From: an uncultured Acidobacteriia bacterium
GTDB taxonomy: Bacteria > Acidobacteriota > Terriglobia > Bryobacterales > Bryobacteraceae
DNA: 64,000 nt
Direction of reading: 5' to 3'
NCBI GenBank assembly: GCA_903828455.1
Contig: CAIKMJ010000078.1
Span: 1 to 64,000 of the forward strand
This document shows, one piece after another, positions 44,142 to 64,000 of the stretch. Under the pieces are notes generated by a model. The model had not been told where the DNA came from and did not search any database. It was given only the letters and a program-made list of their open reading frames with translations. The position numbers were made by a program, and so were the translations under genes. The first letter of the stretch is position 1. Each line of letters opens with the position of its first letter.

Positions 44142-44231
44142 TGGCGGAGAGAGTGGGATTCGAACCCACGTTAGAGTTTCCCCTAAACACGCTTTCCAAG
44201 CGTGCGCCTTCAACCACTCGGCCATCTCTCC
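44142..44231 (-). tRNA. tRNA-Ser (anticodon GGA)
   Basis: The acceptor stem GGAGAGA pairs with TCTCTCC. The anticodon stem-loop ACGCTTGGAAAGCGT gives anticodon GGA. There is a long variable arm, as expected for serine, and a T arm with GGTTCGAATCC. The CCA end is encoded (44142-44144). It borders the polysaccharide locus; no integrase or attachment-site repeat was seen next to it. Confidence 0.97.
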
Positions 44232-58996: not shown

Positions 58997-61231
58997 TTAG
59001 TGGTGGCGCAGTTCGGATTCGATGTCGATGAGCGTCTCGGGCCGCCGCTCGGCGCTTTCGAGGTCGCGTTCCAGCCTGCGCAGCGCCACGCCGACCACAT
59101 CGCGATGATGGATGCGCGAGCCGAATTCGCCTTCGCTCAGTCCGAGCCAGAGCTGGTGCAGACGGTCCACATCTTCCGGCCAGAGGCGCGGCGGATGCGG
59201 GCCGAGGTTGGCGAAGAACGACGGCCGCCCCGGAGCCAGCACTTCGAGCGAGAACGGATGCCGCGGTTCCGGGAGCCGCTCCCATGCCAGACCGATGCGC
59301 CGCGCCAGTTCGTCGGACGCCATGCGCTGCGAAACGCCGGTCACCACGCGCGAGGCCTTCATCCTGGCCGCGGTCTGCACGATCGCCTCGAACGGGTCGG
59401 TACTGGGAACGCAAAGCAGTTCGACCGTTTTGCCTTCCTTCTCCGCCATTTCCACCACGCGTGAGAACAACGACTGCTCGTAGCTGGTGAAGAGCTGGTT
59501 ATCGCCGAGCTGATATTCGCCGGCGCCGGTCGAGACCTGGCGGACCGTCATCACCACCACGTCGTGACGCCGCATGTTGGTCTTATGCAGCACCGAACGG
59601 AGGTGTTCGAGGTTGCTGGAATCGCGCACGGCGACGAGAATCGCGCCCGGCCGGGCCTTGAGCGAGGAAGATTCCACCTCGGCCTGCATGTCGAGGTTGA
59701 ACTCCTCCATGGGATGGCCGTGGACAATCGCGGCGTGCTTCTTCTTGCGGTTGATGTGTTCGGACACCGTGAAGATCACGAACAGAATCACCGTGAACAT
59801 CACGCCGTAGATGGTCGCCACGCGTTTGGAGAAGAGGTTGGCGATTGCCACCAGGCCGAGGAACACCGTGGTGGCGCCGAGCCCGATGGGAATTTCCACG
59901 CCGCCCAGCGTAATGTTGCCGGGGAACTTGTATTCCTGATCCTTGCGGTGATAGCGGAGCACCAGCACGCCGAGCGCCTTGAGGAAGAAGCTCCACACCA
60001 CGCCGAAAGCGTACGCTTCGCCCAGCAGGTAGACATCGCCGCCGCTCATGATGATGGTGATGATCTGCAGGATGGAGATGATGTGAATGATGCGGAATGT
60101 GGTGCCGTACTTCGCATGCGGCTTGCGGAACCAGTCGACGAGGACGCCGTCTTCCGCCACGCGGTTCATGACGCCGTTGGCGCCGATCATGGAAGTGTTG
60201 ACCGCGCCGGCCAGAATCAGCACGCCGACCGCGACCACGAAGACATGGAAGCCGAGGCGCATTATCTCCGGCCCGGCAAGATGCATCGCCAGTCCGCCGA
60301 GCAGGTTGTCGACGTACTTGGGCCGGATGGCGTCCGGAATGATGAGGGCGGCGAAGACCGTGATCAGGCCGGTGCTCACGGCTGCGTAGATGCAGACGAT
60401 GTTGCCGGTGATCATCAGGTTCTTCAGCTTCGGATAAGCGATTTCGCGATAGACCTGCGCCAGCGTTTCGAAGCCGGACATCGAAAGCAGCGAGTGGCCG
60501 AGCGCGATGATCACGGCAATCGGCCCGATCGCGGGCCAGAATGTGCCTTTGAACCAGCCGAGCGCGTCATCGGCAAAAACGATATTGGAGGGGATCGGAG
60601 CCGGCGGAATCTGCGCCGGACCGCCGCGCAGCAGGATCGTCAGCGGGCACCAGATCAGGAAGATGACCACCATGACGGTGGTGATCTGCATGATGCGCAG
60701 CGCCTTGCCGCTCGATTCATGCATGCCCTGGATATTCAGCCACCAGAAGTAGATGGTGACGATGACCGCGAAGCCCGCCGAGAACCAGTTCGGCGAAACA
60801 TGAATCGGCGAGTGCATCGCCGCCGTGATTTCGTTAACGAGGCCGGCCAGGTACTGGCCCGCGCTGACCACGCTGATGGGGCCGGTCAGAATGTAGTCGA
60901 ACAGCAGCGACGAAACGGAGATGCGCGCGATGAACGGGCCCATGGCGTCGCGCACCACGACGTAAACGCCGCCGCGCACAAACATGGACGAGCTTTCGAG
61001 GTACACCGAGCGCACCGCGAAGCTGAACAGCATGACGCCGAGCACGAACCACGGCGCGGAACGGCCCACGGCGTGTTCCGCAATGCCGCCCGCGTAAAAG
61101 GCGGAAGACGCCAGATCGCTGAGAACGATGGAGGCCGCGCGCCAGAAAGAGATAAACGCAAGCGCGACGGTGGTGGCGACAACGATTTTCGCGCCGGAAG
61201 CGGAGCGCGATGCGGTCGATTGGGTGCTCAT
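58997..61231 (-). CDS. APC-superfamily permease, KimA-like (probable potassium importer)
   Basis: A 744-residue protein. The first about 480 residues hold some twelve membrane helices with APC-type features (SDLASSAFYAGG, FDYILTGPISVVSAGQYL). The rest is cytoplasmic and resembles a universal-stress-protein fold (AILVAVRDSSNLEHLRSVL, then ASRVVTGVSQRMA). The layout matches KimA, the c-di-AMP-controlled potassium importer of Bacillus, but with a longer tail. GGAGG lies 9 bp before the ATG. It is a paralogue of the next permease. Confidence 0.82.
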   Translation of the reverse strand: MSTQSTASRSASGAKIVVATTVALAFISFWRAASIVLSDLASSAFYAGGIAEHAVGRSAPWFVLGVMLFSFAVRSVYLESSSMFVRGGVYVVVRDAMGPFIARISVSSLLFDYILTGPISVVSAGQYLAGLVNEITAAMHSPIHVSPNWFSAGFAVIVTIYFWWLNIQGMHESSGKALRIMQITTVMVVIFLIWCPLTILLRGGPAQIPPAPIPSNIVFADDALGWFKGTFWPAIGPIAVIIALGHSLLSMSGFETLAQVYREIAYPKLKNLMITGNIVCIYAAVSTGLITVFAALIIPDAIRPKYVDNLLGGLAMHLAGPEIMRLGFHVFVVAVGVLILAGAVNTSMIGANGVMNRVAEDGVLVDWFRKPHAKYGTTFRIIHIISILQIITIIMSGGDVYLLGEAYAFGVVWSFFLKALGVLVLRYHRKDQEYKFPGNITLGGVEIPIGLGATTVFLGLVAIANLFSKRVATIYGVMFTVILFVIFTVSEHINRKKKHAAIVHGHPMEEFNLDMQAEVESSSLKARPGAILVAVRDSSNLEHLRSVLHKTNMRRHDVVVMTVRQVSTGAGEYQLGDNQLFTSYEQSLFSRVVEMAEKEGKTVELLCVPSTDPFEAIVQTAARMKASRVVTGVSQRMASDELARRIGLAWERLPEPRHPFSLEVLAPGRPSFFANLGPHPPRLWPEDVDRLHQLWLGLSEGEFGSRIHHRDVVGVALRRLERDLESAERRPETLIDIESELRHH

Positions 61232-61578
61232 TACCGCAGCCTCCTCGGGAAGTCCGGGGTGTGGCTCGGCGAAGGAAGACGAAGCTCTGCGTTCATTGAC
61301 AACAAGGAGGCTCCTGATTCCTGCTGCCGCCGGATTCGGCGACTGCAGTTAATGGTCGCTTTGTCAGCGATAAGACCGGAGCGCTGTTGTCGGTGACGGG
61401 AATTGCGCCCCATCCGGACGTCAGGGTCCGGCGCCTTCGCGAAGGTGATGTATCGCAATGGTTACCTGCGATACTAGCACGCGAGGCCCGGCCTGACGCC
61501 CGATGGCGCCGGGGAATTGGCTATAGGCGCCCGGGAATTGGCTATAGAAGAGACGCAGCCGGCGGCTGGCCCCCCTCC
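61232..61578. other. Intergenic region between the two permease genes
   Basis: No gene is supported in 347 bp. It holds a 21-bp direct repeat (61506-61547) and, near the downstream permease, a small hairpin (CGCCGAATCCGGCG). I looked for a second c-di-AMP riboswitch and did not find its conserved stretches. Confidence 0.5.
61506..61547. repeat. 21-bp direct repeat, two units
   Basis: GCGCCGGGGAATTGGCTATAG and a copy with one change follow each other directly, 32 bp after the 3' end of the upstream permease gene. Confidence 0.88.
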
Positions 61579-63846
61579 TTACCCGGCGGTTTCGACGGCG
61601 GCCTTTCCGGACGACCCGTGCTCGTGGATGACGCTCAGGACTTCCGGAAGCAGCCTGTCGTCGGCGGCCGAGTCGATGTCGCGCTGCAACCGGCGGAGCG
61701 CGATGCTGACGACGTCGCGATGGCGGAGTTCGTCCCCGGCGCCTTTGTCAATCAGCGTGAGCCAGAGACGGTGAGTGAGATCCACATCCTCGGGCCACAA
61801 GCGCGGCGGGTGCGGACCGAGGTTGAAGTACGTCGACTGCGCGCCATCCGGCAGAACGATTTCGAGCGACAGCGAGGGGCGCGGCGCCGGCAGCTTTTCC
61901 CACACATTGCCAACGGCGCGGCCCTGCTCGGCCGGCGTCAGCGATCCGGAAAGCGCGGTCACAATGCGCGAGGCATTCAGCATGGCAGCCGTCTGGACGA
62001 TGGCCGTCCACGGATCGCCGCCGGGCACGGTGAGCAGCTCCACGTGCTTGCCCGCCTTTTCCGCCAGTGCCACGACGCGGGAAAAGAGCAGCACTTCAGA
62101 CCGGGCGAATACCTGATCGGTATCGAGGCCATGCTCGCCGGACTCGGCCTGGCCAACCAGGCGAACCGTCAGAACCACGATGTCCTGACGCCGCGTATCC
62201 GTCTTGGCCAGCACTCGTTCCAGATGCGCAAGGTGGTGCGGATTGCGCGCCGCCACCACGATGCAGCCCGGCCGCAGATTCATCTGCGCGGGCGACAGTT
62301 CGTCGCTGGCATGCAGGCGGAATTCTTCTTCTTCCTGGCCCGCGTGCGAGACCGCCTTATTGTGACGCTTGTTATAGCGCTCCGACAGCTCGAAAACGAG
62401 GAAAAACGCGATCGTGAAGGATACGCCGGAAATGGTGGCGACTTTCTTCGTCAGGACGTTGACGATCGCCAGGGCGAACAACGCCAGCGTGATCAGAAAC
62501 AGCCCGACCGGAAGTTCCTTGCCGCCCAGCCGGAAATTGAGCGGCACCTTCCATTCCCGCCCCTCCGGCATCTTAAAGCGCAGCACCAGCACCGAGAGCG
62601 ACTTCATCGCAAAGCTCCAGACCACGCCGAACGCGTAGGCTTCGCCCAGCATGCCCACGTCGCCCCGGCTCACCAGAATGGTCACAAGCTGCAGCACGGC
62701 GATCAGGTTGATGATGCGGCTGGTGGTGCCGAAGCGGTGGTGAGGTTTGCGGAACCACGGCGTGAGTACGCCGTCCTCAGCCACGCGGTTCATCACGCCG
62801 TTGGAACCGATCAGCGCTGTGTTCACCGCTCCCGCCAGAATCAGCACGCCAACGAGCACCACAAACGCGTGGAAAGCGAGCCGCGCGCCGACGGGGCCGG
62901 CGAGAAACATAGACAATCCGCCGATCAGGTTATCCAGATACTTCTGCCGCTCCACGTCGGGTATCAGCATCACCGCGAAGAAGGACACCAGAGACGTGAA
63001 GACCATGCTGTAGATGAAGATCACGAAACCGGCGCGTTCCAGATTTTTCAGCTTCGGCGAGGCGATTTCCCGGTTCACCTGGGCGAGGCTTTCTTCGCCG
63101 CTCATGGCCAGCAGGGAGTGGCCCAGCCCCACCAGAATGGCCACCGCGGGAATCGCGTGCCAGCCCGTTCCCTTCAGCCACCCGAGCGCGTCGGGGCCGA
63201 ACTGGATATTGCTCATGGAAGGGAAGGGCACCGGCTGGTAACCCTTGCTGAGAATCGTGACGAGGCACCAGATGATCAGCATCACCACCATCACCGTAGT
63301 GACCTGCATGATCCGCAGCGCCTTTTCGCTCGATTCGTGGATGCCGATAATGTTCTTGCGCCAGAAGTAGAACGTGACCAGCGCGGCAAAGCCCGCCGCG
63401 AAATGTTCGGGCTGGACGGGCGCCCACGCGAGATGGAAATACTGGATGGATTCGTTGATCAGCCCCGCCAGATAAAGGCCCGCGCTGACGCCGCTGATGG
63501 GCCCGGTCAGCACATAATCGAACATCAGCGCCGAAACGGAGAACTTGGCCAGTTGCGCGCCCATCGCTTCGTGAACCACGCGGTAGACGCCTCCGCGCAC
63601 GAACATGCTGCAACTTTCGATGTAAATCGCGCGCACGGCATACGAAAACAGCATGATGCCGAGAATGAACCAGGGCGCCGACTTTCCGATGGCGGTCTCG
63701 GCAATTCCGCCAACGTAATAGGCGGAAGAGGCAAGATCGCTCAGGACAATGGCGGCGGCGCGCCAAAAGGAAATAAACGACAGCATGACTGTCGTAGCGA
63801 CAACGACCTTGGTGGCCGTCGAGCCCGCAGGCTTTGAGACGTTCAC
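61579..63846 (-). CDS. APC-superfamily permease, KimA-like (probable potassium importer), riboswitch-controlled
   Basis: A 755-residue paralogue of the neighbouring permease with the same layout: about twelve helices (SDLASSAYYVGG, FDYVLTGPISGVSAGLYL), then a large cytoplasmic universal-stress-like domain (IVVAARNPHHLAHLERVL, then ASRIVTALSGSL). It starts with a GTG at 63846, preceded by GGAG. A c-di-AMP-type riboswitch lies about 53 nt upstream. In Firmicutes the same riboswitch controls potassium importers, which supports the transport call. Amino-acid transport is the main alternative. Confidence 0.85.
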   Translation of the reverse strand: MNVSKPAGSTATKVVVATTVMLSFISFWRAAAIVLSDLASSAYYVGGIAETAIGKSAPWFILGIMLFSYAVRAIYIESCSMFVRGGVYRVVHEAMGAQLAKFSVSALMFDYVLTGPISGVSAGLYLAGLINESIQYFHLAWAPVQPEHFAAGFAALVTFYFWRKNIIGIHESSEKALRIMQVTTVMVVMLIIWCLVTILSKGYQPVPFPSMSNIQFGPDALGWLKGTGWHAIPAVAILVGLGHSLLAMSGEESLAQVNREIASPKLKNLERAGFVIFIYSMVFTSLVSFFAVMLIPDVERQKYLDNLIGGLSMFLAGPVGARLAFHAFVVLVGVLILAGAVNTALIGSNGVMNRVAEDGVLTPWFRKPHHRFGTTSRIINLIAVLQLVTILVSRGDVGMLGEAYAFGVVWSFAMKSLSVLVLRFKMPEGREWKVPLNFRLGGKELPVGLFLITLALFALAIVNVLTKKVATISGVSFTIAFFLVFELSERYNKRHNKAVSHAGQEEEEFRLHASDELSPAQMNLRPGCIVVAARNPHHLAHLERVLAKTDTRRQDIVVLTVRLVGQAESGEHGLDTDQVFARSEVLLFSRVVALAEKAGKHVELLTVPGGDPWTAIVQTAAMLNASRIVTALSGSLTPAEQGRAVGNVWEKLPAPRPSLSLEIVLPDGAQSTYFNLGPHPPRLWPEDVDLTHRLWLTLIDKGAGDELRHRDVVSIALRRLQRDIDSAADDRLLPEVLSVIHEHGSSGKAAVETAG

Positions 63847-63898
63847 AAAAACTCCATTTCAACTCCCGGGGAGGGAGGGTTGCTCTCAAATTTGGTCT

Positions 63899-63980
63899 AC
63901 GGGGTTAGCTGACGGGCTAGAGCTTGAAAGTACTCCGTCCGGCCTTACCGGACTTCGCCCCTGGAACCTGGGTTCCCCGT
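63899..63980 (-). promoter_or_regulatory. ydaO/yuaA-type c-di-AMP riboswitch
   Basis: Read on the minus strand, P1 is ACGGGG (63975-63980) pairing with CCCCGU (63899-63904). Inside are the conserved words GGGGAACCCA and GGGGCGAA, a GUCCGG/CCGGAC hairpin (63937-63953), and GCCCGUCAGCUAACCCCGUAG, whose core is the hallmark of this class. Between it and the start codon is a CCCUCCCUCCCC stretch that could pair with the ribosome binding site, so control may be at translation. High c-di-AMP would be expected to turn the permease off. Confidence 0.85.
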
Positions 63981-64000
63981 TTCGGACGCGCAGAGTGTCG

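Follow-up and report, generated by a model that had tools for sequence, protein, structure and literature searches.

Does the RNA leader that ends this stretch of acidobacterial DNA couple potassium import to c-di-AMP, and if so, at which level of gene expression? The window, i.e. the whole 64,000-nucleotide stretch of contig C78 that was analysed, closes with the leader, ahead of two paralogous permease genes. Judging by a protein search of named genomes, the host is an acidobacterium near Bryobacterales: the best matches carry the names Acidobacteriia, Bryobacteraceae and Bryobacterales, and a single Betaproteobacteria label occurs among the 80 rows listed. The features of the locus are collected in Table 1. 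The sole tRNA gene in the window is that of tRNA-Ser(GGA) (44142-44231, minus strand).

Table 1. Leader features and permease genes, in window coordinates unless the contig is named.
Feature	Position	Strand	Remarks
c-di-AMP aptamer (RF00379)	63878..64000, onward to contig C78 64024	-	51.8 bits in the window, 61.9 at full length
Stem ACGGGG/CCCCGU, 5′ strand	63975..63980	-	100% of cells paired in 23 leaders; two pairs changed on both sides
Stem ACGGGG/CCCCGU, 3′ strand	63899..63904	-	
P1, 3′ strand (GAC)	63895..63897	-	pairs with GUC beyond the window end (contig 64011-64013); P1 100% paired
3′ pseudoknot, loop strand (CUUUC)	63926..63930	-	pairs counted over 23 leaders
3′ pseudoknot, tail strand (GAGAG)	63883..63887	-	five core pairs, each kept in at least 21 of 23 leaders
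Hairpin CUCCC-UCCCC-GGGAG, between pseudoknot tail and ribosome site	63863..63877	-	z = -1.89
GGAG, presumed ribosome-binding site	63852..63855	-	5 nt before the start
Permease 1, KimA-like	61579..63846	-	755 aa, GUG start; AA_permease_2 domain and C-terminal part
Permease 2	58997..61231	-	744 aa; paralogue, 58% identical to permease 1

A cmscan search of the window matches the c-di-AMP aptamer model of Rfam (RF00379, ydaO-yuaA) on the minus strand at 63998-63878, with 51.8 bits and an E-value of 4.1e-9. The end of the window cuts the aptamer, leaving the 5′ strand of P1 (contig 64013-64011) outside, and once the sequence beyond is included, the score rises to 61.9 bits (E = 9.7e-14; contig C78 63878-64024, whole-genome search), compared to a gathering score of 38 bits. 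The assignment to the ydaO type made in an earlier note on this DNA thus comes through the covariance-model search proposed there as its check. The landmarks named in that note are present as well, namely: the conserved GUCAGCUAACCCCGUAG (63913-63897, minus strand) and the ACGGGG (63980-63975) and CCCCGU (63904-63899) strands, which pair as claimed. The element is therefore real, but the span first given to it (63893-63986) is too short on both sides, and the GAGAG tail of the pseudoknot (63887-63883) lies outside that span. The 4.4 Mb genome (98.6% complete) yields no second RF00379 match at E ≤ 10, and no decayed second aptamer is found before permease 2 (61150-61650 searched, spacer 347 nt).

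The structure was examined in 23 related leaders; L020, which has no clear start, was left out of the 24. In a 34-pair structure, 89.9% of the cells are paired, compared to 83.8% in column shuffles and only 31.7-55.4% when the same structure is slid by 1-3 columns. The slid structure is the better control, because related sequences can exceed the shuffles. Individually, the helices are paired in 85.9-100% of the cells. Changes on both sides of a pair are found in 62 cells (22.4 in column shuffles) and affect 18 of the 34 pairs (10.4 in shuffles). The window aptamer itself has the rarer U-A pair in P1, a C-G to U-A change, and the rarer A-U pair in the second stem, and pairing is kept in both. 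Of the pseudoknot pairs, the five core ones are each open in no more than one leader by the count over 23, and a sixth, A169-U219, is missing in the window aptamer and in 16 of the 23 leaders. Among the 46 columns that are at least 95% uniform, 36 match the letter of the crystallised ydaO sequence given in PMC5393176, most of the ten mismatches being pseudoknot and loop letters; a counterpart of the CUUUC/GAGAG pseudoknot is readable in that sequence. Judged by sequence and covariation, the RNA is a member of the c-di-AMP (ydaO/yuaA) riboswitch class and would be expected to bind two molecules of this ligand.

The window genome also has a gene from which the host would make c-di-AMP. Its one DAC-domain match (PF02457, 143 bits; G000:C14 64768-65658, L030) opens a row of genes that read by eye as cdaA-cdaR (YbbR-like)-glmM-like. 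The sole cyclase found is thus of the CdaA type and not of the DisA type that the earlier note had suggested looking for. As for turnover, no phosphodiesterase of the DhhP, GdpP or PgpH type was seen in the window genome: its two DHHA1 matches look like RecJ and alanyl-tRNA synthetase, and a sensor domain of the PgpH type is absent.

On the upstream side of the aptamer, 18 of the 24 leaders have the motif TGnTAnnnT, which we take to be the extended -10 form, at a distance of 6-8 nt from P1. Shuffles give 0.14 leaders on average and never more than 2, and elsewhere in this upstream DNA a window of the kind has the motif in one leader of 24 at most; these counts are to be read in light of the fact that the motif was picked after viewing the upstream sequences and that the leaders are related. 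The copy of the window genome, TGTTACGAT, is at contig 64028-64020, outside the window. The best sigma-70 score over the 24 leaders is 7.67, compared to 7.03 (sd 0.89) in shuffles, so that only the extended -10 motif carries weight. From its position, the transcript would probably begin at P1. A promoter-like TTGATC-17-TGTTACGAT (G000:C78 64020-64055) was noted between the aptamer and a divergent frame that resembles a CCA-adding enzyme (named by eye), the ATG of which is at contig 64053, about 28 nt from the aptamer. The pair TTGATC-17-TACGAT scores only 8/12, and a consensus promoter scan gave no match at its threshold.

On the downstream side, a hairpin is found between the pseudoknot tail and the ribosome site in all of the 23 folded leaders, with a mean z of -2.17 with respect to dinucleotide shuffles (below -1 in 18, weaker in five). 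Its position is conserved and its sequence is not. By fixed columns just 60.7% is paired, because the aligner does not line the hairpins up, and z-scores for each leader were used instead. The GGAG lies outside this hairpin. In the window, the closest start codon that is in frame and preceded by a GGAG is the GUG at 63846, 52 nt after GUAG, which agrees with the distance of about 53 nt first reported; predicted starts lie 25-41 nt past the aptamer in 23 of the 24 leaders, those of L004 and L025 having been chosen by hand. A five-codon frame, AUG GAG UUU UUG UGA (63848-63862), runs across the ribosome site and into the GUG of permease 1, probably by chance.

None of the 24 leaders has a terminator-like hairpin between aptamer and start, in keeping with the earlier view that the platform is not of the terminator type. 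When applied to other aptamer loci, the terminator search was positive for L003 (G087) and L013 (G095), where a T-run terminator-like hairpin is present and the start is more than 250 nt away, and negative for L007; with the same aptamer, both platform types thus occur within one class. A supposed terminator at L029 5795-5777 falls inside a gene and was discarded. The proposal that the pyrimidine run CCCUCCCUCCCC masks the GGAG is not supported as a general mechanism: the run forms one arm of the platform hairpin, and no common partner of the ribosome site was found in the 23 leaders. In the window leader, the GGAG is unpaired with a value of 0.36 or 0.84, varying with the length of gene folded. 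Over the 23 leaders, accessibility of the ribosome site is 0.38 with and 0.37 without the aptamer (p = 0.96) in nested folds that carry neither a pseudoknot nor a ligand term. A presumably fortuitous helix between UUUGAGA and a UCUCAAA near the start of the coding sequence was also set aside, no counterpart being visible by eye in the related leader L017.

We take translation to be the most likely level of control on account of the missing terminator and the short distance to the start; such control would have a precedent in the nlpC switch of C. glutamicum (PMC9960051). Neither a conserved pairing that hides the ribosome site nor a difference between the folds with and without aptamer was found, which speaks against this reading. 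The main competing view is that the aptamer acts on transcription without an intrinsic terminator, for which Rho or pausing would be examples; such a mode of action is under debate for Streptomyces. The S. coelicolor switch is described in PMC9960051 as having no canonical terminator, with an action on transcription still under discussion, and leaders in which the ribosome site has no conserved partner would be compatible with such a mechanism. However, a start this close to the aptamer leaves little untranslated RNA, and we regard control of transcription as unlikely.

What would be controlled depends on the nature of permease 1. AA_permease_2 is its sole Pfam domain above the cut-off and is found in all 21 aligned members of its family (alignment A1, 21 of 29 sequences; L092 was dropped for a stop in frame, as were L068, L072, L084, L093, L111, L112 and L127). 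A Usp domain is matched in seven of the 21 (best E = 0.0003), the match in permease 1 (E = 0.21) falling below the cut-off. The potassium and proton residues of KimA were taken from PMC6994465. D36, Y43, D117, T121, S125, E233 and Y377 correspond to D37, Y44, D110, T114, S118, E252 and Y404, each present in 21 of 21 sequences; T121, Y377 and E233 were mapped by the printed alignment and D36/Y43 by motif spacing, and in the latter stretch BLASTP against the acidobacterial KimA L007 shifts the register by one residue. T230 of KimA is S in all 21 and N237 is Q throughout, while Y118 is kept as Y in 19 and is F in two. R337, a c-di-AMP contact of KimA, is not kept, the 21 sequences having D (14), P (4), E (2) or L (1) at the approximate position; according to PMC10284832, this residue is not strictly required in KimA itself.

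As a single sequence, permease 1 has no KimA match in the PDB at 1e-3, and the family profile places KimA (6s3k, E = 0.09) third of three rows, below two plant cationic amino-acid transporters, at values that are not significant. BLASTP against the acidobacterial KimA L007 gives an E-value of 1e-6 (23% identity over 439 aa). The AlphaFold model of permease 1 (pLDDT 76.7, pTM 0.62) has an APC transmembrane fold with a cytosolic alpha/beta domain, as does KimA. Among the matches listed by VIA, three KimA entries come first (Z 39.0-37.7), followed by ApcT (34.0); NKCC1 reaches 28.3. The KimA alignment (Z 39.0) has an rmsd of 17.4 over 527 residues at 15-16% identity, the high rmsd arising because the domains sit differently; the KimA rows also cover the C-terminal domain, so that part of the lead in Z reflects length. 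The C-terminal domain folded alone from one sequence reached a pLDDT of 47.1 and was set aside. Residues, structure and the BLASTP match thus agree with the earlier description of the permease as KimA-like. Without regarding permease 1 as an established KimA, we assign it to a remote branch of the KimA type that would import potassium.

The company kept by the aptamer was followed in other genomes. It scores above the cut-off in 26 of 101 related genomes and in 68 of 396 genomes sampled across the phylum (strict filters, by which weak matches are lost), so that the account of the class as one of Firmicutes and Actinobacteria was incomplete. The open literature searched yielded nothing on c-di-AMP riboswitches of Acidobacteriota, which does not prove their absence from print. 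In the relatives, 24 of the 27 aptamer copies precede a permease at least 60% identical to permease 1; of the remaining three, L003 and L013 stand ahead of different AA_permease_2 proteins, and the third is L007. Under the strict filters, 44 of the 69 genomes with the permease family give no aptamer match. The aptamer precedes copies nearer permease 2 in relatives G001, G002, G005, G006, G008, G013, G015 and G017, and G012 has one ahead of each permease kind. Tandem permease pairs on a single contig recur, e.g. in G010, G011, G033 and G055. In relative G085, the aptamer stands before a true KimA (PDB 6s3k match, E = 2.1e-113; ATG 167 nt downstream), and this genome has no match to the permease family (at E 1e-60), TrkH or Kup. 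The exchange of permease for KimA in G085 is the best single hint of a shared function.

In the wider phylum, the Pfam scan covered 20 of 33 loci, whose downstream proteins comprise three Kup (K_trans), nine AA_permease_2, six without Pfam match and two others; the longest downstream frame was taken, which may differ from the controlled gene, and two of the 33 loci had none. Among the proteins without Pfam match, that of L155 has a KimA match at E = 6.1e-57. The aptamers L141, L144, L149 and L168 precede proteins that share a common beginning and have no Pfam match, perhaps an unnamed c-di-AMP-linked membrane family; a PDB match was not found for the L144 protein.

The window genome gives no match to TrkH or Kup and one to KdpA. 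Since Kdp is the only other importer found among the three searched (TrkH, Kup and Kdp), the leader may set most of the potassium entry. Among the related genomes, TrkH is present in 8 of 69 with the permease family and in 22 of 32 without it (Fisher p = 1.4e-8, uncorrected for kinship). Part of this contrast stems from a single family, f3, which supplies 17 of the 22. Within family f1 the numbers are 8 of 55 and 3 of 6 (p = 0.066, or 0.10 without the genus of the window genome itself). TrkH is found in none of the 26 aptamer-bearing genomes, and 10 of the 101, G085 among them, have neither the permease family nor TrkH nor Kup.

These data also bear on the substrate. The riboswitch could be genuine and the permease a carrier of amino acids or of another osmolyte, in which case c-di-AMP would tune osmolyte uptake. 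This would suit the Pfam name and the plant amino-acid transporters that head the profile search, albeit at non-significant values, and PMC7266159 describes amino-acid transporters behind this riboswitch class. However, the bona fide KimA relatives L152 and L007, both behind the aptamer, are also AA_permease_2 proteins, so the Pfam name does not discriminate. In addition, the KimA potassium and proton residues are invariant, and the permease family seldom occurs together with TrkH. An amino-acid or osmolyte substrate is, in our judgement, rather improbable. Even less probable, to the point of being hard to defend, is an assignment of the permease to bacterial cation-chloride cotransporters (SLC12-like) instead of to the relatives of KimA. 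Both kinds couple an APC fold with a C-terminal alpha/beta domain, and the best eight of the Foldseek matches listed are human NCC or NKCC1, with KimA ninth (4.1e-14 vs. 3.2e-13), but KimA leads by TM-score among the rows covering the full protein (by target, 0.59-0.62 for KimA and 0.31-0.40 for the cotransporters listed), and both the VIA Z values and the BLASTP match to the acidobacterial KimA favour KimA. Finally, that the aptamer is a functionless relic or a chance match is barely credible: it has three non-standard pairs with respect to the model and belongs to the lowest score tier among its relatives, but its full-length score is far from chance in the genome, P1 and the next stem stay paired through two-sided changes in the window sequence, and conservation extends to the promoter-like motif and the order of the genes.

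We therefore consider it probable that this acidobacterium regulates a KimA-like potassium importer at its leader by means of a c-di-AMP riboswitch of the ydaO/kimA class, which works as a translational off-switch, the off direction following from the description of the class as off-switches in PMC9960051. The transcript would probably begin with the first aptamer strand, and its promoter, of the extended -10 type as suggested by the conserved motif, would lie in the gap that separates the aptamer from the divergent cca-like gene. With ample potassium, CdaA would make c-di-AMP, the aptamer would close P1, and the 3′ tail would be locked in the pseudoknot. Closed aptamer, pseudoknot and hairpin would then form a folded block that ends a few nucleotides before the GGAG and by which translation of the permease would fall; the blocking step itself is a guess. 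At low levels of potassium and c-di-AMP, the tail would be free and the permease translated.

A bolder version of this reading is possible, though we hold it to be doubtful: that the longer KimA-like branch has replaced Trk as the housekeeping importer in Acidobacteriota and also runs on the most compact c-di-AMP riboswitch layout described, in which the ligand-closed aptamer itself would block the 30S subunit without a sequestering pairing. That layout would consist of an extended -10 abutting P1, the aptamer, a single hairpin of conserved position that stacks downstream of the 3′ pseudoknot, and finally the ribosome site.

No new kind of system is involved here, and what makes the locus worth attention is the phylum it comes from, the branch to which the importer belongs and the compactness of the layout. 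The finding links c-di-AMP and potassium within a large soil phylum of which little has been cultured and provides some two dozen natural leaders for the study of terminator-free translation control by a c-di-AMP aptamer, a question that PMC9960051 leaves open for C. glutamicum. The nlpC switch of that bacterium is likewise described there as having no canonical terminator, with a translational, repressing control proposed through CUCC-GGAG pairing, much as the earlier note had suggested for the window leader. In contrast, nlpC encodes a cell-wall peptidase in another phylum, and in the acidobacterial leaders the CUCC run is unconserved and forms a local hairpin. The B. subtilis switch shares with the window leader the aptamer fold, the conserved core, the 3′ pseudoknot and the place before a potassium-importer gene (PMC9960051, PMC7266159), but it belongs to a different phylum and uses a terminator (PMC9960051), of which the window leader has none. 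B. subtilis KimA (PDB 6s3k, 8b70 and 8b71) shares with permease 1 the APC fold, the potassium and proton residues, the cytosolic alpha/beta domain and the c-di-AMP riboswitch (PMC6994465, PMC10284832), whereas permease 1 is only 15-16% identical to it, is about 150 residues longer and differs in the unconserved R337, in T230 (S) and in N237 (Q). In B. thuringiensis, a c-di-AMP riboswitch also serves a potassium importer, although there it is the kdp operon that is controlled, at the level of transcription (PMC6488665).
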